Origin: a virus | Virus record (IMG/VR): IMGVR_UViG_3300032245_000750 | Coordinates: 1-36,542 of that record | Length of the DNA stretch: 36,542 bases | Reading direction: 5' to 3' (one strand) | Shown: positions 3,792 through 27,106 of the stretch, piece by piece | Numbering within the stretch: the stretch's first letter is position 1 | Layout of the letters: the number at the start of each line of letters is the position of its first letter | Notes under the pieces: generated by a model | Told to the model about the DNA's origin: nothing | Seen by the model: only the letters and a program-made list of their open reading frames with translations | Database searches by the model: none | Made by a program: the position numbers and the translations under genes

Positions 3792-6700
3792 ATGGCAGAT
3801 TTATATATCAACCCACAAGGTCAGTTAATTAATAATGATTCTCAATCTATTACTGGAAATGAAAAGATAGATAAATATCTTAACACATTACCAGCAGAGC
3901 AAAGAGAAGGTGCGTTAAAAAAAATTACCGCTCCATTAAACGGAGAAGAGATTGCTAAAAAATTAAAAGAAGATATTAATTGGATTCCAAACAAACAAGA
4001 GTTTGATTTATTTAATAAATATCAGTCGCAAAAAGAAACTGATATTGTAGATGGTTTATCTTTATTTACTGATGCTGCTAGTGCTATGTATGATATAGCA
4101 GGAAATGTAATTTCTTCTACATACGACCATCCGCTAGAAAATGCTCTTAAAATTGCTCCTAGTATATTAGAAGGTGGAGTTCAAAACATTCGTAATTGGT
4201 ATGGTATGCTTGCTCAAAGCCAAGACCCTAGTAGTGTTTTGTTTAAATGGAAAAATGTATTATTAAGAGATGGAAGTGATGATGCTTATAAGCAATTTTT
4301 AGAAGCACGAGATTTTGCAAGAGAATCTGTTGGTTATGAAACTGGTGAAAAAACAATGCTTGTTAATAAAGACTATATTGACCCAGCATTAACACAAGCG
4401 GCTGCTATTATAGTTGACCCTATGTTTTATGGTAGTTTTTTAGTTGGCGGTGGAGGTGCTGGTGTTACTCAAAAAGTAGCACAAATTTTAGGAATGTCTG
4501 AGCGTTTGGCTAAGGCTAGTGCTTTTGCTGAAAAGATGAAAGGTGCTGTATATGGAGGTGCTCTTAAATATGGCGTAGGAGTTCCTTTAGAGTTCATTGG
4601 TGACATCACTAGGGGCACTATTGATAAAGCCGTAGAAGGCGGTTCTAAGGTGCTAGAAGGGGCTACTGGAGTATCAGCACAAGACATTAAAACTGCTACT
4701 AAAGTTGGAGGATTTGGAAGTATTGCTACAGGTGTTCCATATTTATCTCCTACTTCTAAAGTTTATTTAGGTGCTGGATTTTCATCTGGATTAGGTGAGG
4801 CTCTTAGTGCTACTGGTGAGCAAATAATGAAAAACGGAGGAAAGCGTGGTTTGCTGTCATTTGCTGAACAGGCTATTGCTGAATCTGACGCTATGCTTGC
4901 TAAAGGTGGTTCTGGGTTAACTCCACAGGCTCGTAAATTGCTTAATGTAATTAATAAAGCAGACCCTATGTTTTCTTATGCTGGTTCTTTTCTTGAAGGT
5001 GGAGCACACGGAGCGGTTGTTGGTGGTGCATTAGGATACCTTGGTGGTGGTGAAGAAGGTGCTTGGGGTGGGGCGGGTGCTGGATTTGGCATTGGTTCGT
5101 TGGGTGGAGTTGCTGGTAGAGCAATGAGCAATATTGGAGGTGGATTAGAAAAACAGCGTTTAGCAGTCCAAATGGATATGCTTATGCCTATGCTCAAAGA
5201 TACTGACCCAAATAAATATAGTGCTATTGAATTGCTTAGAAAGGCTAGTCGTGAGGCTGGCAATCCAGATTGGGTAGTTGATAGATACGCTGTTGCACTT
5301 GATAAAATTGCACCAGCATCCAGAATGAAGGTAGGTGGAAAAGTTGCTCACGAGGCTGAACTTCGTGCAAAAGGACAAGACCCAAAGATTTACGATGGAT
5401 ACGAGCGTGACGCAAATGGTGAATATAAATTAGATAAAGATGGTAACAAAATTCGCTTAAGAGATGCTGAAGGATTTACTATTCCAACTGTTGATGAGTA
5501 TAATCGTGCTGCTGGATTTACTATTCAAAGCGATATAAACAACAATATCAAAATACACATCAATACAGACAAAATTGGTGAAATTAAAAACACACTTCCA
5601 CACGAATTATTCCACGCAGTATTTCGTGAATTAGGAATGAAAAATGAATTTAAAGATAGAATTGCTGAACATATTTTAGGAACATTTGATGAAAAAGGTA
5701 ATCAAATTAAGCCTCCAAGTATTAGCAAATTTGAGGCTGAAAGTTTCTTCACTAAATACATAAATAGTGCTTATGCTGGTACTGACAAGCAAGAGCGTTT
5801 AGCAAAACTTAAACAAGCGTTAGACGAATATTATAGCACAGGAAAGATGACTGTTATGGAGTCAGATGGAGTAACTCCTGTTCTTCATCATTTAAATGAA
5901 GAATTTGGTGCTTATTATTGGACTCATTTTTTAAACGATAAACCTGTAGATTATTTATTCCGTGGTGGGGAATTAGAAGGAATTCGTGGTGTTCTTGATT
6001 CTATTAAAAACAGATGGCAAGATTATATGGAACGCAAAGTTGGTGGTGTAAATGGTGGATTTGATTTTGCTCGTGATAAATATATTAACCCTTCCTTTAA
6101 AGATAAAGACGGAAAGCGTATTCGTGTAAGTGCATTAGATTATATGATGCAGGATTTAATTAGAACTAAATCTGCTGCTTCTAGAGGTCAAGCATTTGAT
6201 TTTAATAAACTTAGTCCAGAAGGACAGGAAGCATATGTTAATGCATCTGGTAATAGTATAGCATTTGAACCACCAAAAGTTAAAGGTGGTAAATACAAAG
6301 TTAGAACTGCAGAACAACAAAAAAAGATTCGTGTTAAACGAGCAGATGCTATGCACAAAGGTCTTGAGGCATTTAGAACTTCAAATCCAGAAATGCTTCG
6401 TGTTAGAGATGCTAACGGAAATGACATAGGAGGGCTTTCACCAGATGCTGATGGAAACTATACTGGATTAATTCCAGATGCTATTCTTGATTATTTTGTT
6501 AAATCTGGTCATATTGATAAAGTAGAAGCAGAGCGTATTAAATTGCTTCAAAAAGCGGCTAGAGGAGAAACTTCTAGTAATGTATTTGAATTCATAGAAT
6601 ATACTGGTGAAACAATGCACACAGGCATTGATTCTAATGTTCGTGCTAAATCGCCATATGTTCCCACTAAAAACAGAGTTGTAATTTTAACTAATTTTGA

Positions 6701-9700
6701 AACTAAAATTACTCCTAATGATTATGGATTTTACGCTCATACATTAGATTACAGACACTTACAATTTAGACAAGATAATTTATGGAAAGACCCTAAGGTT
6801 CGTGCGGCTTGGGGTGATGATAAAGATGCTTTTACTGCTGACTTATTTAGATATTTTAAGAACGCTAGTCAGCCAGATGGAGTTAGATTACCATCTGCTC
6901 AGTTATGGTCTGAAAATGGTGAATACAAACGAAATGTTTTGCATCAAGTAGCAGGACTAGAAACACCTGCATCTGGAACTTTAAATCCATCTTTAGGTGA
7001 TATTAAAGGTGATATGTTCAGCACTTATCGTCAATTCAGAACAGACAGAATGAGCCAAGAGCGTATGGGTAGTGAGAAAATTCACCTACAAGGTAAAGAT
7101 GCTATTGATTACATTCGTCATAATATGATGCCTTCAGAGATGTCTAATGAGCCTACTCCAAATGGTCATATCTATACTCATCCTAATGGATATAAATTCT
7201 TTAAGACTGAAAATGGAATTAAGGCTGTAAAGCCAGATGGTTCAGTTGTTGGTATTTATAAAACAATGGAAGAGGCTGTAAAGAAATCTGATATTATTTA
7301 TCAGAAAGAGAACCCCAATGGTAAGCCTATTCCTAGCGTAGATAATATCAGACAAGAGCCTTTTGACCCTCCAGAGACTCTAAAGCAATATATTGAAAGA
7401 AAGTTAAATAATTTATTTACTACTAGTGAAGAAAATATTTCATCTATTTTAAATTGGAAACCAAATAATGAATTAACAAATTTAATTGAAAGCAAAGATT
7501 TTCAAAATTTTTTAAACAATCACGATGCTAGTTTAGATATAGTTAGATATAATCATATTATTGATAAACAACAAACAACAAAAAATACTGTATCTAAATA
7601 TTTAGAAGTACAATATAATAAAGAACAACAGGCAGTTAATCCTACATTTGTATCTGGTCTTAGCGTAGCACTTGATAAAATACTTTCTGCTAATGTTAAT
7701 AAAGAAGGAACTATTCAAGCCAGTCGTTTGCTTAATTTAATGGATAGAGCATCTGGTGGAGACATAGGAAAAATACTCACAGAATCTAATGCTATTGGAT
7801 TTACAGATTGGTTAAAATCTAAAAAAGACTCTCGTGTATCTGAGGCTGAAATTCGTCAATACATTAAAGACAATGGTATCAAAGTAAGTTTAGACCCAAG
7901 AACTGATATTCGTGGCAATGAATGGTATGGTGGTGGTTTTGATACATCTAGATATACAGCAGAAGGTAAAAGAGATGGATACTATACTTTTGTAGCAAGA
8001 ATTAATCCAGAACACGCTCACGGAGTAGAAGGACATTTTGGAGGAGATAGTATTGTTCATATTCGAGCAACTACTCGTACTGACGCACAAGGTCGTAAAG
8101 TGCTGTTTGTTGAGGAGATTCAATCTATCAATACTGCCCGTGAAGAACTTTCTCCATCTCAGCGTTCTGTAGTTCAATCTGAAATTAAATCTTTAAAAGA
8201 ACTTAAAAACATTGCAAGTGAATTTAATAAAGTAAGTAAATTGCATTATGAGTCAAAGGGTACTATGCTTAAACGAGCATTAGATATTGCTAGAAAAGAA
8301 GGAATTGAAGTTTTAAAAGAATATGAAATGAAAGGAGAAGTAACAAATGATTTTAGAAAATTAGTAGATATTATTGCTTCTTCAGATATTCTAAAATTAG
8401 AAAAAATACCTAAATTAAGTAATAACAGTTCAATAGAAATAATGCGTGATGGTAAGTATGAAATTAAGCGTCTTGTTTCTGAGCGTGAGTCTCAACTTGC
8501 TAAAGTTAAAAGCAACAAGCCACTTCAAGATTTCAACGAAACAGTTAAAATAGCAAGCAGGACTATTATGCGTAAGGCTGTTGAACTCGGTGCTGACAGG
8601 GTTGTTTTAGTTAGACCAGAGGATATGCACCCAGATGTCTCTACTAATGCTGAAGGTGAGCGTTTTGTGGACACGCTTTATGGCAGAGATATACCTGCAA
8701 TGATGAACGCTGAGTTAAAGAAGTATGGCAAAAAGTTAGCACCTGCTAGAAACTATGGAAATCAAGACCCTAATGCTCCTATAAAATTATCTGGAAGAAT
8801 GGTAGGTAGTTCTGATAAATTATACAGCAAAGAAGCACAAACTAAACAAATACTTTCAGAGTCACTAGGTTACGACATCACCCAAGAGATGAAGCAGAAG
8901 GCTGGCAGAAGTCAGACTTTTATGATGCCATCTGAAAATAGTGATATTATTTATACTGGGAGAAGATTTGTTGGACAAGTAAAAGGAGGAATGTGGGCTA
9001 CTAGAGATTTTAAAAGATTAGAAAATGCTGGTGGAATAAAAGCATATAGAATAAGTCCAGATGCTCGTGTTTTAGTTCTTCATAAAACAAAATTTGATAA
9101 GAATGGAAACTATCTTTATTCTGATGTTAATAAATCTGGCTTTAATGAATTAAGAAAAATTGCTTTAGAGTCTAATCAAGATTTAGATTTTTGGGATAAT
9201 AAAGAACAATTATTTAGTAATCCAGAGTTGTTAGATGGAGACAGTTTATTTCCATCTTTAGATACAGATGAAACTATGCGTATGTCTGATAATGAAATCG
9301 AAGATAAAAACGCAGAGTTTCCAGAACAACAAACAAGAAATTCTATAAATAAACGAGATTTATTACAAGCAGTTAAAGATGCTGGTTATGACATAATTAA
9401 GACTACAAATATTGAAGGTGAAGCAACATTAGTTTTAAATAAAAATGCTGTAACTCCATTAACTGTTGATGATAAATTACCAACTCATTATATGCCCTCT
9501 GAAGGCGAGTACAGAAGTGGCGATAATTACTGGAAGGCTAAAGAGAATAAATTTGAAGGTGTAGATGAAAATGGTCAAACATATAGACTAGCATCTGCAA
9601 TTATTAATGGTAAAGTAGAATTTAATCCAGACCCAGACAATGTTTCTTGGATGGATATTGGGCATAGTAATATGCGTATGCCTAATCAAAAGGTATATGA

Positions 9701-11696
9701 GGCGGGCAATTTAAGAAATAAACCTGTAACATCACCAGATGATTATATGGCTAAAATGCGTGATGGTTTGTGGGCTATTGCATCAAATAAACCTAATGAT
9801 GTAATGATGTATAAACCACCCGCAAATGCACGACCAAGACTAGAAGCAATTACACACGATGAATGGTTGAGAGGTTTTAGGGAAGGTGGTCACGGACGCT
9901 ATATATATGATATTACAACTGGACGATACGAAAAACCTATTTACAAAGATGGTAAATTAATTGAAAGGGGCAGGTTGTCTATGCAAGCCTATGGTGAAAT
10001 TACTTCTTTAGAACAGGCTAAAAAAATTAAAGAACAAGTTGCTAAAAAACTAGGTTTTAAGTCTGAAGATTTTGATGCTTATGTTTTTGATAGTGGAGTA
10101 AAAGAAAAATTAGGCATAAGTCGTAAAGACCAACTGCCTATTAAGTTTATGCCAGCAGAAAGTTCTGAACCTATTCCATTTAAAGACTTTATTGCCAAAA
10201 CAGAGCAAGAAGTAGGTGCGGCTTGGTCATTACCTTTCTATAAAAAATTAGAAGGTTCAGTTATTTCTGGGGCTGATATTGGAAATTTGCGTATTCTTAA
10301 AGTAACAGAAGATAAAAATAAACAACCTAAATTAACTGTAATTAATGAAGAAAAATATCAAAAGATTCTTAAAAATTACCCAGAAGGAAAACCAAGAGAT
10401 AATGAAATTCGTCAAAGTGCTGAAGAATATAAAGCGTGGGAATTTCGTAAAGGAGAATTTAGGCATCCATTATTTACATTACAAAACAATATAGAAAATA
10501 TTAAGTTCGATGCTTCATCTGCAAAGCCAGTTAAGCAAGTTACATTTAATGCACAGGCTATCAGTTCTGCTGTCAGTTCTATTGCTGATGATTTAATAGG
10601 AATGGAGTTTGATAAGACTTCTACTACTACTTTATTTGGAAGAAAATCTAAGACTGGAGAAGTCAAAGGAATTATTCAGAACTTACAAGATGCAGTACAG
10701 GAATTAAACAAGGCAAGAACGCCAGAAGAAAAGTCTAGTGCTGTAGATAAAGTTAATTCTTATGTTGAAGAACTTAGGTCATTAAAAGATGAACTACAAG
10801 ATAAGCACGATAATACTCCAGAATCATTTCAAGAAACTGATACTTACACTAATCGAGAAGAAGCAATAGATGCACTTGATAATGCTATTACTGATTTAGA
10901 AAATAGTGCTGAAGATACAAGTGGTGGCTCTACTGGAATTAAAAATATGATGCCAGCCGAAGGCGAGCAGGGTGGACGAACTTATACAAATACAGAATTT
11001 AATTCTTTATTTATTGGAAGATATGCACAACAAAATAAAGACTTGCTTAAAAATCTTACAATTAAAGTAACTGAAAAGAGTGATGGATTTGAAGTAAGAC
11101 TATATGACCAAAAATCTAAAACACCAAGTTTGCATATTGGAAGTTTAAAAATTGATAGAGCAAATGATTCTAGTTCTGCAAGTATTGAAAATGCTGACAT
11201 AAATGGTTCTTACAGAAATAAAGGAATTGGTAAACTTTTATATAGTGAAGCAGTTGAAAGATTAAGAAGTTTAGGTGTTACTGATGTTGATGGTATGATT
11301 GTTGATGAATTTAATAGACCTGTAAAAATTCGTAAAAAAATTATTGATGAAGAAAATAATCGTATTGAAAATAAAACAAGAATAAATACTAATGGAAGAA
11401 CTTATACATCTGCTGTAAGAACTGATGATTATGGAAATCAACAAAAAGATGTATCTTCTACATTAAGACAAGATGCTTATTATATGCCATCAGAGCAAGC
11501 ACAGGCTTGGCGTGACTTCAAAGCAGAGCCTACTACCGAAGGAAACAGCATCTTTAAGAACGCTATGAACTTTGTGATTATCCAAGCGAACAAAAAATAC
11601 AAGGTGTATAATCCACAGAAAGCATTGTTAGGTATTTACACAGATTTAGACCAAGCAAAACGGAGAGTTCAACGAGAAGAACCTAAACAACGATGA
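3792..11696 (+). CDS. Giant multidomain virion protein (large polyvalent protein) with zincin motif, LPD-like, GNAT and repeated MPxE junctions
   Basis: The product has 2634 residues and lies where T7 has gp16. Residues 190-460 hold several Gly/Ala-rich hydrophobic stretches that could cross membranes. HELFH at 604-608, with a glutamate-rich EEFGAYYW about 100 residues later, is a zinc metallopeptidase signature. VEEIQS near 1440-1445, followed by a helix and ELGADRVVLVRPEDM, is the pattern of a domain found in large polyvalent phage proteins. Residues about 1715-1900 look like a compact alpha/beta domain ending in AGYDIIK. Residues about 2390-2540 carry a GNAT acetyltransferase core with RNKGIGKLL. 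Six motifs M-P-(S/A)-E stand at 1113, 1712, 1901, 2120, 2387 and 2565, between modules. Segments 1133-1168 and 2600-2630 are related to each other. The protein is probably packaged and ejected into the host; which domains act there is unknown. Confidence 0.75.
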   Translation: MADLYINPQGQLINNDSQSITGNEKIDKYLNTLPAEQREGALKKITAPLNGEEIAKKLKEDINWIPNKQEFDLFNKYQSQKETDIVDGLSLFTDAASAMYDIAGNVISSTYDHPLENALKIAPSILEGGVQNIRNWYGMLAQSQDPSSVLFKWKNVLLRDGSDDAYKQFLEARDFARESVGYETGEKTMLVNKDYIDPALTQAAAIIVDPMFYGSFLVGGGGAGVTQKVAQILGMSERLAKASAFAEKMKGAVYGGALKYGVGVPLEFIGDITRGTIDKAVEGGSKVLEGATGVSAQDIKTATKVGGFGSIATGVPYLSPTSKVYLGAGFSSGLGEALSATGEQIMKNGGKRGLLSFAEQAIAESDAMLAKGGSGLTPQARKLLNVINKADPMFSYAGSFLEGGAHGAVVGGALGYLGGGEEGAWGGAGAGFGIGSLGGVAGRAMSNIGGGLEKQRLAVQMDMLMPMLKDTDPNKYSAIELLRKASREAGNPDWVVDRYAVALDKIAPASRMKVGGKVAHEAELRAKGQDPKIYDGYERDANGEYKLDKDGNKIRLRDAEGFTIPTVDEYNRAAGFTIQSDINNNIKIHINTDKIGEIKNTLPHELFHAVFRELGMKNEFKDRIAEHILGTFDEKGNQIKPPSISKFEAESFFTKYINSAYAGTDKQERLAKLKQALDEYYSTGKMTVMESDGVTPVLHHLNEEFGAYYWTHFLNDKPVDYLFRGGELEGIRGVLDSIKNRWQDYMERKVGGVNGGFDFARDKYINPSFKDKDGKRIRVSALDYMMQDLIRTKSAASRGQAFDFNKLSPEGQEAYVNASGNSIAFEPPKVKGGKYKVRTAEQQKKIRVKRADAMHKGLEAFRTSNPEMLRVRDANGNDIGGLSPDADGNYTGLIPDAILDYFVKSGHIDKVEAERIKLLQKAARGETSSNVFEFIEYTGETMHTGIDSNVRAKSPYVPTKNRVVILTNFETKITPNDYGFYAHTLDYRHLQFRQDNLWKDPKVRAAWGDDKDAFTADLFRYFKNASQPDGVRLPSAQLWSENGEYKRNVLHQVAGLETPASGTLNPSLGDIKGDMFSTYRQFRTDRMSQERMGSEKIHLQGKDAIDYIRHNMMPSEMSNEPTPNGHIYTHPNGYKFFKTENGIKAVKPDGSVVGIYKTMEEAVKKSDIIYQKENPNGKPIPSVDNIRQEPFDPPETLKQYIERKLNNLFTTSEENISSILNWKPNNELTNLIESKDFQNFLNNHDASLDIVRYNHIIDKQQTTKNTVSKYLEVQYNKEQQAVNPTFVSGLSVALDKILSANVNKEGTIQASRLLNLMDRASGGDIGKILTESNAIGFTDWLKSKKDSRVSEAEIRQYIKDNGIKVSLDPRTDIRGNEWYGGGFDTSRYTAEGKRDGYYTFVARINPEHAHGVEGHFGGDSIVHIRATTRTDAQGRKVLFVEEIQSINTAREELSPSQRSVVQSEIKSLKELKNIASEFNKVSKLHYESKGTMLKRALDIARKEGIEVLKEYEMKGEVTNDFRKLVDIIASSDILKLEKIPKLSNNSSIEIMRDGKYEIKRLVSERESQLAKVKSNKPLQDFNETVKIASRTIMRKAVELGADRVVLVRPEDMHPDVSTNAEGERFVDTLYGRDIPAMMNAELKKYGKKLAPARNYGNQDPNAPIKLSGRMVGSSDKLYSKEAQTKQILSESLGYDITQEMKQKAGRSQTFMMPSENSDIIYTGRRFVGQVKGGMWATRDFKRLENAGGIKAYRISPDARVLVLHKTKFDKNGNYLYSDVNKSGFNELRKIALESNQDLDFWDNKEQLFSNPELLDGDSLFPSLDTDETMRMSDNEIEDKNAEFPEQQTRNSINKRDLLQAVKDAGYDIIKTTNIEGEATLVLNKNAVTPLTVDDKLPTHYMPSEGEYRSGDNYWKAKENKFEGVDENGQTYRLASAIINGKVEFNPDPDNVSWMDIGHSNMRMPNQKVYEAGNLRNKPVTSPDDYMAKMRDGLWAIASNKPNDVMMYKPPANARPRLEAITHDEWLRGFREGGHGRYIYDITTGRYEKPIYKDGKLIERGRLSMQAYGEITSLEQAKKIKEQVAKKLGFKSEDFDAYVFDSGVKEKLGISRKDQLPIKFMPAESSEPIPFKDFIAKTEQEVGAAWSLPFYKKLEGSVISGADIGNLRILKVTEDKNKQPKLTVINEEKYQKILKNYPEGKPRDNEIRQSAEEYKAWEFRKGEFRHPLFTLQNNIENIKFDASSAKPVKQVTFNAQAISSAVSSIADDLIGMEFDKTSTTTLFGRKSKTGEVKGIIQNLQDAVQELNKARTPEEKSSAVDKVNSYVEELRSLKDELQDKHDNTPESFQETDTYTNREEAIDALDNAITDLENSAEDTSGGSTGIKNMMPAEGEQGGRTYTNTEFNSLFIGRYAQQNKDLLKNLTIKVTEKSDGFEVRLYDQKSKTPSLHIGSLKIDRANDSSSASIENADINGSYRNKGIGKLLYSEAVERLRSLGVTDVDGMIVDEFNRPVKIRKKIIDEENNRIENKTRINTNGRTYTSAVRTDDYGNQQKDVSSTLRQDAYYMPSEQAQAWRDFKAEPTTEGNSIFKNAMNFVIIQANKKYKVYNPQKALLGIYTDLDQAKRRVQREEPKQR

Positions 11697-16073: not shown

Positions 16074-16886
16074 TTAGAAAGGAACATTATCTTCTGGTTG
16101 TTCTTCCGATACATCAGATGCGGTAGGAACTTCTTTTTCATTTGCCTCTGCCCACAAGCGTTGTGCTTCTGCCTTTGTAGCAAGGTCACGCTTTGAGATT
16201 ACTCCTGTGTCTCCGAATGGCTTTGGTTGCCAAGCGTTAGCCCAGTAGTTAAGGTCAGCACATTTCTTTGTGCGGTCGGGAGAACGAAGTGGAAGGGCTG
16301 ACAAAGGAGTTCCCTTGGCATCTCCAAATGGAGCAACTACATCTGTGCTTCCCTTGCCTTGTGTGGTCTTTTCTGCATTTGGGTTAGGAATGTATTTAGT
16401 GTTCTTTGCGTTTAGATTTGCGTAAGTTTTAGCAGTAGCAGGTGACTCAACACGATTAGTTTCTGCGTCATCGTCTTCAGTTGCAACACCAGCCACAGAA
16501 GCCAAAGAATACCTGCGAAGATAAGAATAGATAGACCCAGCGTTTTGACCAGAGATTCCCTTTTCACAAGGAATAAGAGCATCTGAACTAACTGAACCAC
16601 CTTCATTGTGAATGATGATTGTTCGGACTCCGACTGATACCAAGTCTCCGATTGGCATTTGTAAGATTCCGAGTCCGTGCTTTGAAAATAACGGCTTAAG
16701 GGATTCAAGGTGTGCTGATAGGGAAGCATATTTGTTTTTGTGAAACGGATTGGTTGAGTCTGCAATGATGTCCTTAGTTTCAGCAATAACTTTAATTAAG
16801 GCTTTGTTTAATGCGACTTGTTGTTCTGGAGTATTTTGGTTCATAGGATTATTGTTAATAAAAAGTTGATTAAGATTAGTGTTCAT
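16074..16886 (-). CDS. erf: ERF-family single-strand annealing protein
   Basis: The product has 270 residues. NPFHKNKYASLSAHLESLKPLFSKHGLGI (about 46-74, quoted by ends) and the block GSIYSYLRRYSLASVAGVATE with the acidic EDDDAE just after it are diagnostic of the ERF superfamily. These ring-forming proteins anneal complementary single strands and mediate phage recombination and circularisation. The C-terminal third is low-complexity and ends in the acidic tail EEQPEDNVPF, similar to the SSB-like acidic tip. Its natural partner is the RecE-like exonuclease at 19946-20737 in the same operon. The first ATG is used; a second at 16844 is possible. An RHH regulator gene lies directly upstream. Confidence 0.9.
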   Translation of the reverse strand: MNTNLNQLFINNNPMNQNTPEQQVALNKALIKVIAETKDIIADSTNPFHKNKYASLSAHLESLKPLFSKHGLGILQMPIGDLVSVGVRTIIIHNEGGSVSSDALIPCEKGISGQNAGSIYSYLRRYSLASVAGVATEDDDAETNRVESPATAKTYANLNAKNTKYIPNPNAEKTTQGKGSTDVVAPFGDAKGTPLSALPLRSPDRTKKCADLNYWANAWQPKPFGDTGVISKRDLATKAEAQRLWAEANEKEVPTASDVSEEQPEDNVPF

Positions 16887-16907: not shown

Positions 16908-17078
16908 TTATTTATTGTCAACTGCTTTTTCTAAAACAATGCGACAAAAATTAGACCGAGTTAATCCAACATTTTTTGCACATAATGTTATTGACTTAAG
17001 TAATTTAGAAGGCAAGCGAAGCGTAAGCATATCTTCAGATGTCTTAATGTTTCGTTTAGATAGTAATTTTGTTTTCAT
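16908..17078 (-). CDS. Ribbon-helix-helix regulator
   Basis: A 56-residue reading frame, short but well formed. EDMLTLRLPSKLLKSI followed by NVGLTRSNFCRIVLEKAV matches the ribbon-helix-helix fold: a beta strand with alternating polar residues (MLTLRLP), a first helix, a turn with G-T-R, and a second helix. The basic N-terminus (MKTKLLSKRN) is also typical. Such proteins are dimeric repressors that insert the strand into the major groove. It stands first in the unit RHH-ERF, 37 bases downstream of a TTGACA-GTAATAC element, and so may control its own unit; a target site cannot be proven. Confidence 0.7.
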   Translation of the reverse strand: MKTKLLSKRNIKTSEDMLTLRLPSKLLKSITLCAKNVGLTRSNFCRIVLEKAVDNK

Positions 17079-17201: not shown

Positions 17202-17231
17202 AATATAAACTTTGTTTAACTTGCTTGTCAA
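17202..17231 (-). promoter_or_regulatory. Sigma70-like promoter for the RHH-ERF unit
   Basis: On the minus strand TTGACA (17231-17226) and TATATT (17207-17202) are separated by 18 bases. This is the best sigma70-type promoter in the early region. It overlaps the end of the helicase loader gene and points to the RHH and ERF genes, which begin about 125 bases downstream after a leader containing a hairpin and element B. Confidence 0.6.
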
Positions 17232-17899
17232 GTGCTAATACCAACAATGTTAAAATAATCTTTGAAGCGTCTAATTAGGGCTACACCTGTTTCCTTGTCC
17301 CGATTTTCAAATCGCTCAAGGAGAGCAGTTCCGTTAAAGTTAGTTGAGATAATTGTAGCCCTGCGAGCGGTTGTTCTCTCGTCTATAACACTAAACAGGT
17401 CAGAAGCCATACGAGATGTAAGACGCTCTTTTCCAAAGTCATCAAGGATAAGAAGTTTGCACTCGATTAGGTTGTCTATGGTCTTTGCGTGACAGCGTTT
17501 GTCAAAAGACTCCTCAATCATTCCCTCGAGTTTACGCATTGTAAGGAACTGAAAGTCAAGTTGTCTGTCATTCTTTGCTTCCTCTTCCCAGAGCCGTCTA
17601 ACGACCTCCCAAACTCCACGAGTCTTTCCTACACCAGTCTGTCCGTGGAACAACAGTCCACACTTGTCCCCATCTGGCTTCCAGTCCAAAGCGTCTTGGA
17701 CTCTAGAATGTAGTCTTGTCTTATCTGTATCCCTAAAAACAAGTGGCATCGAAGGAGGAAAAAAACTATCTGTATATCCATTAGACCCAATACGCTCCCT
17801 GTCCATATGCTCTCTACAATGATGCCAGCGAACAAGAGAACCATCTTGTCTGGCTAGTAAAGCCCCCCGCTTTCCACAATGGCAAGCAATGTCACTCAT
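17228..17899 (-). CDS. DnaC/IstB-like helicase loader ATPase with zinc-finger-like N-terminus
   Basis: With the ATG at 17899, which overlaps the upstream stop as ATGA, the product has 223 residues. CHCGKRG near the N-terminus with HHCREH about 20 residues later offers a zinc-binding set. GQTGVGKT (about 86-93) is the Walker A motif, LLILDDFGKE the Walker B, and STNFN the sensor 1 of the DnaC/IstB branch of AAA+ proteins; the arginine-containing ALIRRFKD follows. Such proteins load the replicative helicase at an origin. The initiator-like gene at 19269-19949 carries iterons, so the pair resembles lambda O and P in logic. No phage helicase is visible, so a host DnaB would be the partner. Confidence 0.85.
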   Translation of the reverse strand: MSDIACHCGKRGALLARQDGSLVRWHHCREHMDRERIGSNGYTDSFFPPSMPLVFRDTDKTRLHSRVQDALDWKPDGDKCGLLFHGQTGVGKTRGVWEVVRRLWEEEAKNDRQLDFQFLTMRKLEGMIEESFDKRCHAKTIDNLIECKLLILDDFGKERLTSRMASDLFSVIDERTTARRATIISTNFNGTALLERFENRDKETGVALIRRFKDYFNIVGIST

Positions 17900-18774
17900 A
17901 GTCCGCACATACCCTCGCACTCTGAAGTGAAGTCCCATTCCTGTTGTCCTTTGTCTGTATCTGAATCAAAATCTATTTCTGATATAGGACGGCAAGATGA
18001 ATGAAGATATACCTCCATTTTCATATCTGTCTGCTCTGTCTTATACATTTGACGAATAGTTTTATCAAACTCAATTGCTTTCTTAAAATGCTCTGGGTCG
18101 TCATTTCGTAAGCGTCTCCACTCATCGTCAGAGTGAAATGGACAATAATAACAAGCAGAGCGAGGAGGTTCTGGATAGTTATTTCTTTTCATCCATTCCT
18201 TGCAATGAGCACGAGTCATCTTTTTTTCTACTAATACCCATCTATGTTGAGTCCATTTGTTACTAGGCAACTTCATTCGTTGCATCTCATCGTATGAGAT
18301 TCCAATCCATTGTGTAACAGTTACTTCTTTCTGTGCGTGAGTTATCCCGCAACGCTTTTTTATTTCTTTGAGAATAGGTGCTACTTTATAATCAGCAGTA
18401 CAAGTTCTTCCAATAGCCGCAGTTACTTCCCCGCTTGGTTTAATACCAAACAAAGGAATTAAACGCCTCATAGATTTAAGCCCTGTCTTTTTTCGGTAAA
18501 CTATTTTAAGACTATCTTCTGTTAAGTTTCCTTTTGTGACCCGATAAATAGGAAATGGATACGGGCATTTGTTAATCTCTTGCTCTAAATAGTCTAACCA
18601 AGTATAAACACTAGTAGGTTCTGCTTGTGTATCTGCAAATACAGCAAAATCAACACGAGGAGTTATTTCACCTTTAGCCGCCATAAGAGCCATTGTTGAA
18701 GATTGAACCCCTGCACCTAAATTAAGCACATTCCATTTTGTGTGCGGTGGTGGGTCAAAAAATGAATTGCTCAT
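17896..18774 (-). CDS. PP-loop / PAPS-reductase-like protein
   Basis: The product has 292 residues. LNLGAGVQSSTMALMAA near residue 16 is the pyrophosphate-binding loop of the adenine-nucleotide alpha-hydrolase family in the form common in phages (LGAGVQS). VFADTQAEPTSVYTWLDYLE follows, then a cysteine-bearing GRTCTADYKVAPI and CYYCPFHSDDEWRRL. The family includes sulfate-assimilation PAPS reductases and DndC of DNA phosphorothioation; phage members have no settled function. The cysteines could hold a metal or iron-sulfur centre. It sits between a small unknown gene and the helicase loader, overlapping both, so it belongs to the DNA-metabolism operon and a role in DNA or RNA modification is a reasonable guess. 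Confidence 0.8.
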   Translation of the reverse strand: MSNSFFDPPPHTKWNVLNLGAGVQSSTMALMAAKGEITPRVDFAVFADTQAEPTSVYTWLDYLEQEINKCPYPFPIYRVTKGNLTEDSLKIVYRKKTGLKSMRRLIPLFGIKPSGEVTAAIGRTCTADYKVAPILKEIKKRCGITHAQKEVTVTQWIGISYDEMQRMKLPSNKWTQHRWVLVEKKMTRAHCKEWMKRNNYPEPPRSACYYCPFHSDDEWRRLRNDDPEHFKKAIEFDKTIRQMYKTEQTDMKMEVYLHSSCRPISEIDFDSDTDKGQQEWDFTSECEGMCGL

Positions 18775-18989: not shown

Positions 18990-19279
18990 TAGTCGTTGTA
19001 TTCTTCGATTGCTCGCTCAATAATTAAGTTATAAAACTCATTGTCAATGTCTCTTGGTTCGATAGCATAATCTTCTTCAGATGAAATGCTTTTAATGTCG
19101 ATTGTTTCTGGGTCAATCTCTCTGGAGTAATGTTTAAAAACATAGAACTCACCACCCCTGTCTCCGTTGTATGAGTCGTCAACGGAGCGTTCGTCATAGT
19201 CAACTCCTACGACATAGCATACTCCTTTGTAATCTATGGTTAACTCCATATCTGGTGATTTATATTTTTTAGAACTCAT
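18989..19279 (-). CDS. Unknown acidic early protein
   Basis: With the ATG at 19279 the product has 96 residues. The open frame extends further upstream, but that part lies over the initiator gene in another frame and looks non-coding, so I use the internal ATG, which gives an 11-base overlap with the upstream gene. The protein is very acidic (DYDERSVDDSYNGDRGGEFYVF, SISSEEDYAIEPRDIDNEF). Acidic small phage proteins may be DNA mimics or partner inhibitors, but nothing specific is seen. Confidence 0.5.
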   Translation of the reverse strand: MSSKKYKSPDMELTIDYKGVCYVVGVDYDERSVDDSYNGDRGGEFYVFKHYSREIDPETIDIKSISSEEDYAIEPRDIDNEFYNLIIERAIEEYND

Positions 19280-19949
19280 TGTGGTCTTGTGCTGATAATG
19301 GTTGTTTTTGGTTTTGGTTGGAAAAATTTCTTGGCTCGAATAGTCCTGTCCACCCGTTTGTAATACTATGGTTGATGCTGTCAATAGATTTCTTTTCTCC
19401 CCATAAAATAAATTGCTTCCATTGAAGTTTAATAGAAGTTGGCTTAAGTTGCTTCTTAATCTCCTTACGATACTCAATCCATTTAAACCAAGCGTCTTCA
19501 AATGACTTTGATGAAAATGGTAAAGAACCTACGATTGGAGCAGAGTTCCTTGTATCTTTATCTTCTTTATTATCTTCTTTATTATATGTAGGCAATTTTT
19601 TGCCACCCCCCGTGGCAATTTTTTGCCTAGGGGTAGGCAATTTTTTGCCACCCCCCTGCACGACTAAAGCGTCCAGAAGGGCTACCTTTTCGACAGTTCT
19701 GATAATTCGTCTTCCGTCCTGCTCTAAACGAACTATCAGTTTATGGTCGTCTAACTCCTTCAAAAGATTGCGTATTTGACGCTCTGCTAGCCCCAAGGAG
19801 CGAGCCAAGTAGCCGTTTGAGGCATAACATCCGTCCTCATTATCAAGTGAGTCTATAATGCCATACACGAACTTGGCGGTAGGAGAAAGCGTTTCGATTT
19901 GGAAAACCTCTTTAGGTATCCATACGCCTGTAAAATTAGGATTGTTCAT
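19269..19949 (-). CDS. Replication initiator-like winged-helix protein
   Basis: The product has 226 residues. Residues about 20-75 form a winged helix: LSPTAKFVYGIIDSL, YASNGYLARSLGLAERQIRNLLKEL described by its ends, then the wing LIVRLEQDGRRIIRTV. This is the N-terminal domain pattern of phage replisome organisers. A middle linker contains GGGKKLPT twice, encoded by an iteron array. The C-terminal part has AWFKWIEYRKEIKKQ and LQWKQFILWG, resembling DnaA/DnaD-like helical tails. The DnaC-like loader lies downstream in the same operon. The stop overlaps the next start and the start overlaps the exonuclease stop by four bases. I infer that it binds the iterons inside its own gene, as lambda O does. 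Confidence 0.7.
   Translation of the reverse strand: MNNPNFTGVWIPKEVFQIETLSPTAKFVYGIIDSLDNEDGCYASNGYLARSLGLAERQIRNLLKELDDHKLIVRLEQDGRRIIRTVEKVALLDALVVQGGGKKLPTPRQKIATGGGKKLPTYNKEDNKEDKDTRNSAPIVGSLPFSSKSFEDAWFKWIEYRKEIKKQLKPTSIKLQWKQFILWGEKKSIDSINHSITNGWTGLFEPRNFSNQNQKQPLSAQDHNEF
19551..19590. promoter_or_regulatory. AT-rich segment beside the iterons, possible DNA-unwinding element
   Basis: About 40 bases made almost entirely of A and T, with three TTATCTT/TTCTTTATTA-type pyrimidine runs on the plus strand, lie directly beside the iteron cluster. In iteron origins the melted region is a similar AT-rich stretch next to the binding sites. The purpose is inferred; the segment is also coding for NKEDNKED in the initiator-like protein. 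Confidence 0.5.
19591..19649. repeat. Three iterons GGCAATTTTTTGCC, putative replication origin
   Basis: The 14-base unit GGCAATTTTTTGCC occurs at 19591-19604, 19614-19627 and 19636-19649, all in the same orientation and exact, with start-to-start spacing of 23 and 22 bases, close to two helical turns. The first and third copies share a longer 24-base identity including a following run of C. Each unit is nearly palindromic (GGCAA/TTGCC). They lie inside the replication initiator-like gene, beside an AT-rich segment, as lambda iterons lie inside gene O. Confidence 0.75.
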
Positions 19950-20737
19950 AAAGTGATTTCAACAGGATTTTCGGAATAGGCAGGATAAACTCCTGTCGCT
20001 TGGCAAACCCAAAAACTATCAAGTGCATTATCCCACACCTTAAACGCATTTGCTAAACTATCCTTGTTGATAGTGTAAATCCCAACAGCAAATGGTGGTT
20101 CTTTTTCAATAGCAATGAAGTAAAAAGCATTAACAGGTTTTCCAGCATTTTTTAATAACCAAGAATAATGAACTTGTTGCAGGGCATATCCCCTGTCCCA
20201 GATTGCTTTGCGAAAACCTGCAGGAGATGCGTCCTCTGCTGTTTTTAAATCTATCACAATACCATCTTTCTCATTGTAGCCGTCTATTAGTCCTTTCAAT
20301 CTAATGCCGTGATTTGTTCCAAAAACTGCAAACTCTTTATTGGTCAAAGACTGAATAAGACTACCAGCAAATCCATTTGACATAACAGAGTCAGTCATAC
20401 TGATAATTTTGCTATGTTCTTCGCTGTCCAAAATAATTTTGCCAGCGTTTGCTAAAGCAAACTCTTCATTGTAGGCACGACCCTCTTTAGACCTGCCGTC
20501 CACTTTTTGTTTGACGGCGTAATGTTCTTCTGGGTTGTCCTGTAAAACTTTAGCGTGAAATGCAGTTCCAAATTGCATCGCCCTGCTTGGCTCTCTTGTG
20601 CTTTCGGTTGATGCAAGGTAGTGTGCTGGTGAAATTAAAAACTCCTTAAGAGACGATTGAGAAAGACCTGTTGCCTTTCGGTATTCAGTTTCAGTAATGT
20701 TTGTGATAACAGCAGGGTCTGTGTTCATAGGGTTCAT
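19946..20737 (-). CDS. RecE-like PD-(D/E)XK exonuclease
   Basis: The product has 263 residues. LSQSSLKEFLISPAHYLA near residue 24 and MQFGTAFHAKVLQ near 54 are the N-terminal helices and the GTAxH motif of the RecE/exonuclease VIII group; RLKGLIDGYNEKDGIVIDLKTAEDASP, given by its ends, supplies the D and D-x-K catalytic core; QQVHYSWLL is the following Q-x-x-x-Y motif. Such enzymes degrade one strand from double-stranded ends to give a 3-prime tail for annealing. Together with ERF it forms a recombination pair like RecE/RecT. Start at 20737; ATG codon 4 is an alternative. It overlaps the initiator gene by four bases. Confidence 0.85.
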   Translation of the reverse strand: MNPMNTDPAVITNITETEYRKATGLSQSSLKEFLISPAHYLASTESTREPSRAMQFGTAFHAKVLQDNPEEHYAVKQKVDGRSKEGRAYNEEFALANAGKIILDSEEHSKIISMTDSVMSNGFAGSLIQSLTNKEFAVFGTNHGIRLKGLIDGYNEKDGIVIDLKTAEDASPAGFRKAIWDRGYALQQVHYSWLLKNAGKPVNAFYFIAIEKEPPFAVGIYTINKDSLANAFKVWDNALDSFWVCQATGVYPAYSENPVEITL

Positions 20738-21027
20738 AATGCGTTAATTTTGTTTTGTAATGATTTGATTTGTTCTGTCATTTCTGTCCTTGCAAGAGCA
20801 GACAGATTATCCTTTGTTAGACATTCAAATCCGACTTCGTTGATAGAAGCAATCGGATAGCAACCCTTAATCGCTACGCTGTTAGACTCCCTGTATTTAA
20901 GCCAGAAATCAACTTGTTCAAAAGCAAGTGTGGCTGTGTTGTGTGTTGTTGTGACAACGCAAGGTTTGTCCTTTGTAGTCATTGCAACAACAACTATGTA
21001 ATTAGTGTATTTGTTTTGTGTGTTCAT
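20734..21027 (-). CDS. Unknown early protein
   Basis: The product has 97 residues. A beta strand-rich start (YIVVVAMTTKDKPCVVTTT) leads into a helix (ATLAFEQVDFWLKY), a second strand region (SVAIKGCYPIASI) and a C-terminal coiled-coil-like helix (TEMTEQIKSLQNKIN). I do not recognise a family. Its leader on the minus strand is AACCACAACACATATG, related to the AACCACAATG leaders of the plus-strand genes. It overlaps the exonuclease start by four bases. Confidence 0.5.
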   Translation of the reverse strand: MNTQNKYTNYIVVVAMTTKDKPCVVTTTHNTATLAFEQVDFWLKYRESNSVAIKGCYPIASINEVGFECLTKDNLSALARTEMTEQIKSLQNKINAL

Positions 21028-21038
21028 ATGTGTTGTGG

Positions 21039-21227
21039 TTATTTGTTTCCTAAAATGTATCCAGCAATACCAGCGTCAAGAGTCTTTCGACCCCCATTGT
21101 GCGTATTGACGGCTTGAATGATTTTCTTCTCAACATACCTGTCAAGTGCTTCGAGGAACTTCTTGCTTGTTCTCTTTCCGTTCACCTTAACAAGTTTCTT
21201 AACTGCAGTGTGTTTAATGTAGTGCAT
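21039..21227 (-). CDS. Small basic protein with histone-fold-like pattern
   Basis: With the ATG at 21227 the product has 62 residues; an in-frame GTG at 21248 is possible but less likely. The order helix (IKHTAVKKLVKV), loop with R-T-S (GKRTSKK), long helix (FLEALDRYVEKKIIQAV), loop with GRKT, short helix (LDAGIAGYI) follows the histone fold: archaeal and bacterial histones have a similar R-(V/T)-S at the start of the long helix and a similar RKT or RST in the second loop. The long helix is about five residues shorter than in archaeal histones and closer to bacterial ones. It stands between element C and the exonuclease unit and is probably DNA-binding. The assignment is by motif pattern only. 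Confidence 0.55.
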   Translation of the reverse strand: MHYIKHTAVKKLVKVNGKRTSKKFLEALDRYVEKKIIQAVNTHNGGRKTLDAGIAGYILGNK

Positions 21228-21258
21228 AGTGGTTGATTGCAACTTCACAATAACAGAT

Positions 21259-21274
21259 GTATTACCTATGTCAA
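21259..21274 (-). promoter_or_regulatory. Conserved element C (TTGACA-TAG-GTAATAC)
   Basis: On the minus strand TTGACA (21274-21269) is followed after two extra bases by GGTAATACATCTGT. It lies 42 bases before the ATG of the histone-like gene and shares the TTGACA-GTAATAC core with the elements at 17107-17120 and 22314-22327. It may be a promoter or an operator of the early genes. Confidence 0.45.
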
Positions 21275-21642
21275 CATTTATTTTTTCTTCGTCTTTCTCG
21301 TGCCTTCTTGTTTCTGGCTATTCGCTTCTCGTCTGGACTTTTATGGCTTGGGTGGATTTCCTGTCTTGGATTATCAGTAAAATTCACCCAATAATTTTTG
21401 ATTTGGTTAATAAAATCTATTGCCGTTGATTTTCGCTTTGCCCTTCGAGCCAGATTAAAAATCTTACCCTCAATGCCGTTGCAATTTCCACACAGCACAG
21501 CCCTAATTCTTCCATTGGTATGGTCGTGGTCAAGACAAGCGACAACGATTGATAAATCAACATCGCACAATCTGCACCTGTTTCCCTGTTCTTTTGCTAA
21601 CTTTTCACGCAAAACAGGTATGTCTTTTGGTTTAAGTTTCAT
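21271..21642 (-). CDS. Endonuclease VII-like HNH nuclease
   Basis: The product has 123 residues. CRLCDVDL, then ACLDHDHTNGRIRAVLCGNCN (the D-H-D-H centre with a following C-x-x-C, described by its ends), and GIEGKI match recombination endonuclease VII of the T4 gp49 type: two Cys pairs bind zinc and the His centre cleaves branched DNA. The tail is strongly basic (NKKARERRRKNKC). In phages this enzyme resolves junctions before packaging. It fits beside the ERF and RecE-like genes. The ATG overlaps the end of the small membrane protein gene by 11 bases. Confidence 0.85.
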   Translation of the reverse strand: MKLKPKDIPVLREKLAKEQGNRCRLCDVDLSIVVACLDHDHTNGRIRAVLCGNCNGIEGKIFNLARRAKRKSTAIDFINQIKNYWVNFTDNPRQEIHPSHKSPDEKRIARNKKARERRRKNKC

Positions 21643-22628: not shown

Positions 22629-22691
22629 TTATTTTTGATTGACTGAACACAAGACACCTTTATTTCTTTTGTATTACAACTTACAACCACA

Positions 22692-22952
22692 ATGAGCCAA
22701 GACTATTATTTTGAAAACCTATTTATAAAACTTGGGCAAGAAACGCTTATTGTTTCGGGTCGTGCAAAATGGGAAGCCGTTGGTGATGACCTGTCTTTTA
22801 ACGCAAAGTTTTACGAGGCAAAAATAACAGACATTTATGTCACCAATGAACAACAGGGTCACACAGCAAGCGATTTAGTTTACTACGCTAAATTAGCCGT
22901 AGAAACCCTTAATCAAGATAGCGAACTTTGTGCTTACCTTCCATTGACATAA
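22692..22952 (+). CDS. Unknown small protein, paralogue of the 22365 product
   Basis: The product has 86 residues. YYFENLFIKLGQETLIV at the start and DLVYYAKLAVETLNQDSELCAYLPL at the end, given by their ends, match the design of the upstream gene (NLFI versus NLNI, LNQDSELC versus LNQNPALC). Its leader is ACAACTTACAACCACAATG, the first of four similar leaders. The function is unknown. The 63-base gap before it holds a TTGATT-11-AGACA segment that resembles the promoter-like repeats at 23.9 and 24.25 kb. Confidence 0.55.
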   Translation: MSQDYYFENLFIKLGQETLIVSGRAKWEAVGDDLSFNAKFYEAKITDIYVTNEQQGHTASDLVYYAKLAVETLNQDSELCAYLPLT

Positions 22953-23023
22953 AAATAATTTAACTTTGTGCTTGCACTTAAAAAACCTTGTGATACAAAT
23001 ACAAATCTCAACCCACAACCACA

Positions 23024-23251
23024 ATGAAAACAAAAACCAAAAATAACAAAAAGTCTTATCGTATCATTTTAGTTAAGACATACTCATTCGATACTCCAAA
23101 GATTTTTTCTAACGCCAAACAAGTCTATGATTGGCTTGAAAATGAAATCTCAAGTGTAGACTTTGAAAGACAAGCGGAGCAAAATGGAATAGACGAAGAT
23201 TTTGCGGTCTTTGAAATAGACAAAAATGGAAATACTAAAGAGACAAAATAA
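23024..23251 (+). CDS. Unknown small protein with shared leader
   Basis: The product has 75 residues, with a basic start (MKTKTKNNKKS) and an acidic second half (ENGIDEDFAVFEIDKNG, given approximately). A strand-helix pattern (YRIILVKTYSF, AKQVYDWLENEIS) suggests a small alpha/beta fold. No family is recognised. The leader is AACCCACAACCACAATG. It belongs to a short plus-strand run of genes with the same leader. Confidence 0.5.
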   Translation: MKTKTKNNKKSYRIILVKTYSFDTPKIFSNAKQVYDWLENEISSVDFERQAEQNGIDEDFAVFEIDKNGNTKETK

Positions 23252-23269
23252 TTTTAACCCACAACCACA

Positions 23270-23617
23270 ATGAAAAACCAAATGAAAAACCAAATGGAAA
23301 ACGAAAAAATCACTATTGAACTAACCGAACTTGACGAAAAGGGGAAACCCTTTAAGTCAAAAACGAAATACCTGTTGGTCAATGCTCAAGATTTGTTCAG
23401 CGAACTTACTCAAGCACTCGACTTTGAACAAGAGCAAGGTTTTGAAATAGAAACGCAAGTCAACGCCTTCGACACAGAAACAGGGGAAACTATTGAGGAG
23501 TTTTATATCGTCCGCTTCACCCGAAACAGGGGTTGGGGCTTAATGGGCAAAATAACGCACCCAAAGGAAGGTGTTTTTCGTTTCTATTTAGATTTTTTAA
23601 CTGACGAAGTTTTATAA
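23270..23617 (+). CDS. Unknown small acidic protein with shared leader
   Basis: The product has 115 residues. The start MKNQMKNQMENE contains a short in-frame repeat. Then come ITIELTELDEKGKPF and a beta-rich body (FEIETQVNAFDTETG, EEFYIVRFTRNRGWGLMG). It is acidic overall. No family is recognised. The leader is AACCCACAACCACAATG, almost identical to that of the preceding gene, 18 bases after its stop. Confidence 0.5.
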   Translation: MKNQMKNQMENEKITIELTELDEKGKPFKSKTKYLLVNAQDLFSELTQALDFEQEQGFEIETQVNAFDTETGETIEEFYIVRFTRNRGWGLMGKITHPKEGVFRFYLDFLTDEVL

Positions 23618-23638
23618 AAACCTTTAACCACAACCACA

Positions 23639-23908
23639 ATGAAAACTAAAAAGGAAAAAGAAATCAAAAAAGCATTAGCAATGCTCAAGAGGCATAACCT
23701 ATCTATTTTTACTTACGAAAACAAAGAGTTTTTGGAAGAATGGATTTTTGAGTATTGGAAGGCAAAGGATTTAAAACCTACAAAGAAAAACTTGGACAGG
23801 GTAAGAGAAAAAGCAATGGAGTATGTCATTGCAGAGTCCTTTGCTTCGGACATTATGTATAAAGCAATAGATTGGCTGGCTATGAAACAATCTTTTGTAA
23901 AAAAATAA
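23639..23908 (+). CDS. Unknown small basic helical protein with shared leader
   Basis: The product has 89 residues, mostly helical and basic (MKTKKEKEIKKALAMLKRHN at the start; VREKAMEYVIAESFASDIM near the end). The leader is AACCACAACCACAATG. No known family. The next start (23952) is preceded by a promoter-like repeat, so this is probably the last gene of its small transcript. Confidence 0.5.
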   Translation: MKTKKEKEIKKALAMLKRHNLSIFTYENKEFLEEWIFEYWKAKDLKPTKKNLDRVREKAMEYVIAESFASDIMYKAIDWLAMKQSFVKK

Positions 23909-27034: not shown

Positions 27035-27106
27035 CGGTCTGTAGTTCAACGGATAGAACATTCGCCTTCTAAGCGAATAATCTTGGTTCGATTCCAAGCA
27101 GACCGA
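27035..27106 (+). tRNA. tRNA-Arg (anticodon UCU)
   Basis: All arms form: acceptor CGGTCTG/CAGACCG (7 pairs), D arm GTTC/GAAC with loop AACGGATA, anticodon arm TTCGC/GCGAA with loop CTTCTAA giving anticodon TCT, four-base variable region, and T arm CTTGG/CCAAG with loop TTCGATT. It reads AGA, a codon used often in these phage genes. The discriminator is A and no CCA is encoded, so CCA must be added by the host. It is followed 63 bases later by the first late gene. Confidence 0.9.

Follow-up and report, generated by a model that had tools for sequence, protein, structure and literature searches.

A predicted minimal histone-fold protein encoded among the replication and recombination genes of a phage

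A small open reading frame among the early genes of a viral genome was described in an initial annotation as coding for a histone-like protein. This raises the question of whether such a phage carries a free-standing histone of its own and, if so, what this protein would do.

The P0001 gene and its start codon

The window, that is the whole stretch of DNA analysed here, spans one complete IMG/VR virus record, 36,542 bases long. Translation of positions 21039-21227, for which the initial annotation named no strand, gives on the minus strand a single open frame of 62 codons plus a stop codon, and the same frame on the plus strand is closed by a stop at codon 5. The predicted protein product is here termed P0001.

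21039..21227, minus strand: P0001, predicted histone-fold protein of 62 amino acids (ATG 21227-21225, stop 21041-21039), identified by translation, family, structural model and fold matches
21225..21235, minus strand: start-codon leader CAACCACTATG, common to P0001 and four nearby plus-strand ORF starts, identified by exact pattern matches

An alternative in-frame GTG at position 21248 would lengthen P0001 by seven codons; the ATG at 21227 is favoured because the exact CAACCAC[A/T]ATG leader sits on it. The other four exact leaders are found on the plus strand at 22684-22694, 23016-23026, 23262-23272 and 23631-23641, and all five terminate in the ATG of an ORF. When one mismatch is allowed the pattern occurs at seven sites in the window, a number reached in none of 100 shuffles. 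Only two of the thirty ORF starts in the window carry a Shine-Dalgarno-like stretch, and starts may therefore rely on another signal. A promoter-like site 5′ of the P0001 gene was rejected as being within chance (five found; 3.9 expected).

Distribution and selection of the P0001 family

Used as a single query, P0001 retrieved no relative among viral contigs and none among named phages (best e-value: 4), while against the PDB it matched designed repeat proteins, FliG and one other protein, with no histones among them. When its first 53 residues were used, the bacterial histone HBb was matched weakly (e-value: 0.22). As P0001 alone gave nothing convincing by sequence, phages with related capsid and terminase proteins were fetched, and 46 of these records were searched along with four exonuclease relatives (n = 50). 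Homologues at 43-66% amino acid identity are present in 12/50 of these related records, and the family profile recovers the same twelve; since the gene occurs in just these twelve, it is taken to have an accessory function. The fetched flanks of the exonuclease relatives L002-L038 contain no homologue.

Two scans of IMG/VR (37 and 38 loci, with 31 contigs in common by name), together with one contig from the search of the relatives, bring the family to 45 IMG/VR contigs besides the window, to which two bacterial genomes are added. A scan of a genome collection identified a homologue in one species, an Ignavibacteriaceae MAG, and true homologues are present in 2/395 genomes of its phylum, namely the MAG itself and one more. 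A match in genome G278 was a false positive, being read by eye as a leucyl-tRNA synthetase. No family match was found in plasmids, nor in named phages queried with the divergent member L246, and a match to the tail of a Vibrio phage RuvC-like resolvase, covering half of the query, was attributed to chance. The family lacks a name in the PHROG and Pfam libraries, as no model in either matches it. A Foldseek search of BFVD gave just two matches with e-values below 0.001, both of them uncharacterized proteins of uncultured Caudovirales phages for which no function is listed. These proteins, A0A6J5QYV5 (63% identity; e-value: 7.5e-7) and A0A6J5MS37 (57% identity; e-value: 1.7e-6), apparently belong to the same family, although the latter is 91 amino acids long.

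The family alignment A2 comprises 28 of the 37 loci from one IMG/VR scan, from which L215, L217, L224, L228, L231, L234, L241, L244 and L247 were omitted as identical or near copies and which still holds a few near-identical pairs. This alignment and ten further members make up a set of 39 sequences, 61 to 79 amino acids in length. Among 13 chosen close pairs dN is lower than dS in twelve, mostly by five- to twenty-fold, while the thirteenth shows one change in total, which is nonsynonymous. Judged by these codon comparisons, the family is under purifying selection. The P0001 ORF is a genuine gene, as the initial annotation had assumed, given its recurrence on 45 other virus contigs, the lower dN than dS and a profile score above that of shuffles.

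Predicted fold

The AlphaFold2 model of P0001, built from 29 phage sequences only and without templates, has a pLDDT of 92.1 and a pTM of 0.72, with helices at residues 6-15, 22-41 and 52-59. The initial annotation had described a short helix, RTS, long helix, GRKT and short helix in this order, and had considered that a fold without the central long helix would speak against a histone. The order is seen in both the sequence (R19-T20-S21 and G46-R47-K48-T49) and the model, where the second helix supplies the long central element. With L246 as first sequence the helix order is unchanged (pLDDT: 81.9). Helix 2 comprises 20 and 21 residues and helix 3 eight and six residues in the P0001 and L246 models, respectively; passages of PMC11390915 describe helix 3 of α3 histones as truncated to three to four residues and helix 2 as shorter than in nucleosomal histones.

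All fourteen Foldseek matches of the P0001 model in the PDB are histone folds, and the top five are the bacterial α3 histones HLp and HBb (probability: 0.93-0.99), with e-values of 0.23 or worse which are not significant alone. Similarly, 27/36 matches of the L246 model are histone folds as judged by their titles, and HBb and HLp occupy five of its top six ranks. In a VIA-align comparison with 27 chains, Z-scores of 7.1 over 60 residues for HBb, 6.7 for HLp, 5.5 for a subunit of SAGA and 5.1 for HMfB of archaea were obtained, all within the range (Z < 8) for which the tool warns that a common arrangement may be reflected. The proposed histone-type fold is supported by the P0001 model, by the Foldseek and VIA-align matches and by the L246 model, and we regard it as highly probable that P0001 adopts this fold.

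Sequence relationship to α3 histones

Comparison of the family with HBb, HTkC and HLp in hhalign gave a probability of 89.3 and a score of 33.7, while the highest score among 200 column-shuffled controls was 17.5. HTkC, an α3 histone with its structure solved in PMC11390915, was the best match of a 13-member profile among 177,635 PDB sequences (e-value: 0.02). With the 29-member profile A2 HTkC improved to an e-value of 0.0059 and was ranked under 28 repeat proteins such as TAL effectors and Hax3, which were set aside as artefacts whose scores sum sub-threshold repeats of 13 to 15 residues; HTkC is as such the best single-stretch PDB match of the family profile. SPT6 rows in the search with the 13-member profile (e-value: about 1) were put down to chance.

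The initial annotation had also suggested a profile search against histone and DUF1931-type families. This search gave no match in Pfam, as neither PF00808 (CBFD_NFYB_HMF) nor PF09123 (DUF1931) was found at e-values up to 1 in any of 13 members, nor in L246 and L248. This result says little, since HTkC, a solved α3 histone, also falls short of the PF00808 cut-off (17.0 bits), whereas HBb clears it (23.7 against 21.4 bits). On the profile evidence, the P0001 family is akin in sequence to HBb, HTkC and HLp.

The weak Foldseek e-values and the negative Pfam result, along with the missing loop-2 clamp described below, would also fit a small three-helix phage protein without kinship to histones, whose fold and RVS and KKT motifs are alike by chance or convergence. 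A similar short helix-loop stretch does occur in the tail of the RuvC-like Vibrio phage protein, apparently by chance. Sequence profiles and predicted structure nevertheless converge on the α3 histones, with the loop motifs in matching positions, and we consider such an unrelated origin very unlikely.

Candidate residues for DNA contact and dimerization

The initial annotation had pointed to R-T/S and RKT positions as DNA contacts, and the loop-1 arginine and loop-2 lysine-threonine pair are indeed kept in the alignment of 39 sequences: Arg19 is conserved in 37/39, Lys48 in 35/39 and Thr49 in 37/39. Most lysines of helix 1 are likewise kept across the family, and all 29 proteins for which charge was calculated are strongly basic (pI: 9.59-10.28; net charge: +6 to +12).

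In known DNA-binding histones, loop 2 is held by an element termed the RD clamp. This clamp (RxTxxxxD) is missing in all 39 sequences, none of which has an acidic residue seven positions after position 47; that position is itself Lys or another residue in 35/39, and Asp51, two residues past Thr49, is present in 36/39. According to a passage of a 2026 survey (PMC13260811), the aspartate of this clamp is invariable among the histones of archaea. A second departure concerns the dimer core, to which Leu38 of HBb belongs according to passages in PMC11317129. In the aligned column the phage proteins have Lys35 (35/39) or Ala (4/39), and a lysine here appears unusual for a helix-2 handshake and is a caution for the dimer. 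Asp29 and Lys35, which are symmetric about the helix-2 crossing, could pair across a homodimer. The columns of HLp R49 and N53, which serve the face-to-face tetramer, hold Glu/Thr42 and Gly45, and an invariant Asn44 lies one column off.

The core lysine and the lost clamp could also represent an altered interface. In this alternative, the histone fold would serve protein contacts rather than the organisation of DNA, and P0001 would pair with and modify a partner, which could be a nucleoid or histone-fold protein of the host or a recombination protein of the phage. The recurrence of the histone gene near annealing and exonuclease genes, detailed below, is compatible with such a partner. The strong positive charge, the loop-1 arginine and the loop-2 Lys-Thr pair would, however, be needless in a protein of this kind, and this alternative is improbable.

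Gene neighbourhood

P0001 is encoded within a minus-strand run of replication and recombination genes.

21271..21642, minus strand: endonuclease VII, upstream neighbour (PHROG 423, e-value: 3.9e-35; Pfam PF02945, e-value: 1.2e-12)
20734..21027, minus strand: 97-amino acid protein, next gene downstream (no match in PHROG or Pfam)
19946..20737, minus strand: RecE/exonuclease VIII-like protein (PHROG 412, e-value: 2e-59)
19269..19949, minus strand: O-like replication initiation protein (PHROG 678, e-value: 2.4e-20)
17896-18774, minus strand: phosphoadenosine-phosphosulfate-reductase-like protein, among the replication genes
17228..17938, minus strand: DnaC-like helicase loader (PHROG 50, e-value: 1.1e-20)
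16908-17078, minus strand: 56-amino acid protein weakly resembling CopG/ribbon-helix-helix antitoxins (e-value: 8.1e-5, under the curated cut-off)
16074..16886, minus strand: Erf-like single-strand annealing protein (PHROG 2324, e-value: 2.3e-30)

A metallophosphoesterase is also encoded downstream of P0001, and the terminase and major capsid protein are encoded on the plus strand. The P0001 gene is separated from its downstream neighbour by 11 nt, and the genes beyond overlap one another, which suggests an operon; the placement in an early operon claimed from the sequence agrees with this replication and recombination gene run. The assignment to a podovirus fits the capsid relatives and the 36.5-kb genome size.

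Several further features of the window and its relatives were recorded. The 56-amino acid CopG-like protein is conserved in many relatives, and a second phosphoadenosine-phosphosulfate-reductase-like protein is encoded near the histone gene of an unrelated-looking phage (L225:3354-4442); these reductase-like proteins possibly function in DNA modification. The window contains one tRNA (27035-27106, plus strand), compared to five to seven each in L211, L216, L219 and L243, and a 2634-amino acid ORF (3792-11696, plus strand) occupies approximately a fifth of the genome.

Within the fetched flanks, which end at contig ends so that absences of neighbour genes do not count, a RecE-like gene is found in 23/38 loci, always on the strand of the histone gene. 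The histone gene occupies a separate upstream place in most of the relatives bearing a RecE-like gene; in the window, L214, L245, L246 and L247 it adjoins this gene or lies one gene away. A Sak4-like annealing protein is encoded two genes before the histone gene in L248 and 0.9 kb away on the opposite strand in L236, and a RecT-like annealing protein 4 kb from it in L238. On the bacterial chromosome of G175 (L302:6827-9964), the histone gene lies beside a gene for an ATPase which by eye resembles the Sak4-like protein of L248, the label Sak4-like resting on a PHROG match for L248 only. Two genomes from a single bacterial phylum (G175; L248:1739-3476) thus have such an ATPase gene close to the histone gene. 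A possible ArdC-like gene precedes the histone gene in G175 and the next large genes resemble carA/carB, again by eye; the arrangement suggests a small integrated element. As annealing and exonuclease genes are common in phages, their link with the histone gene is no more than suggestive.

In 20/23 loci (for example L216:7931, L233:7930 and L239:3830), a conserved palindromic element, GGGGGAAGTTACTAACCCCTTTTT, precedes the histone gene by no more than 200 nt. Up to two extra copies are present within 1.3 kb, and every copy is on the strand of the histone gene. In many loci, as seen in an upstream alignment of 14 chosen loci, it is followed by a conserved C/T-rich leader. The element may act as an operator, or it may form the hairpin of a terminator or attenuator. 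If it were an operator, it would suit a transcriptional role in which P0001 retains the histone fold and DNA binding and, from its place in the early region, switches early gene expression at preferred sites, such as these one to three same-strand copies, without coating the genome. The contacts that are kept, however, are those with which histones reach the DNA backbone and minor groove, and passages of PMC11317129 describe known relatives as binding without sequence specificity. The element furthermore resembles a terminator or attenuator at least as much as an operator, and it was not found in the window. A dedicated regulator is accordingly unlikely.

Comparison with known α3 histones

HBb (Bd0055; PDB 8fvx, 8cmp, 9ezz and 9f0e) is a 'bacterial dimer' α3 histone of Bdellovibrio bacteriovorus which P0001 resembles in fold, in length (64 amino acids in HBb), in the VKKL pattern of helix 1 and in the GRKT loop. 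P0001 differs from it in lacking the RD clamp, in the lysine that replaces Leu38, in being far more basic and in being phage-borne, while loop 1 contains an arginine where HBb has Met-Asn-Thr. The family resembles HTkC, a face-to-face α3 histone of Thermococcus kodakarensis (PDB 9f2c), in its RVS loop 1 and KTL loop 2. The residues of the face-to-face tetramer, however, appear out of register in the alignment, the RD clamp is missing and there is one residue fewer before loop 2.

Bacterial-virus histones are presented in passages of PMC11390915, repeated in PMC12701072, as one category known by structure prediction and possessing an extra C-terminal domain. These published 'phage histones' (e.g. 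A0A2E7QIQ9) have a C-terminal helical tetramerisation domain and a proposed role in DNA bridging (PMC11390915; Schwab et al. 2024). According to the same passages, they share with the P0001 family the α3 fold, the occurrence in tailed phages and the lack of the RxTxxxD motif. P0001, by contrast, ends three residues past helix 3, and the family stops at the histone fold; as the tetramerisation domain is absent, the family was placed outside the 'phage histones', a separation based on their published description. We read the P0001 family as a new, minimal, phage-borne α3 variant which falls into neither the 'phage histone' category, as described, nor that of the 'bacterial dimers'. In the parts of the literature that the search returned, phage histones were discussed only in PMC11390915 and PMC12701072; the phrase 'phage histones' also occurs in PMC3100819, and the word phage is nowhere in the viral-histone review PMC9145170.

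Proposed function and implications

We consider it likely that P0001 is a minimal phage-borne histone of the α3 group, which as a homodimer coats or bends replicating phage DNA without sequence specificity. The homodimer would form through the long central helix in the usual histone handshake, and double-stranded DNA would be bound, irrespective of sequence, by the lysines of helix 1, Arg19 of loop 1 and Lys48-Thr49 of loop 2. Among relatives with a solved structure HBb is the closest, and passages in PMC11317129 describe it as bending DNA irrespective of sequence. P0001 would be made together with the O-like initiator, the helicase loader, the RecE-type exonuclease, the Erf annealase and endonuclease VII, and the replicating phage genome would be bent or coated such that replication and recombination are aided, P0001 serving as the phage's own nucleoid protein. 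That P0001 binds DNA is probable, and we give about even chances to its acting in replication or recombination.

More speculatively, tailed phages may carry widespread stand-alone, clamp-less histones of approximately 60 residues, forming a sixth α3-histone subfamily that builds phage chromatin on replicating DNA alongside RecE/Erf, Sak4 and RecT, and phages might have spread the α3 histones of bacteria; we hold this wider proposal as tentative and would not presently expect it to be correct. A free-standing single-fold family, found on dozens of phage contigs and frequently near genes for recombination, offers a small and testable protein. It raises the question of how a histone loop keeps its shape without the RD clamp, and whether phages assemble a chromatin of histones on their genomes.
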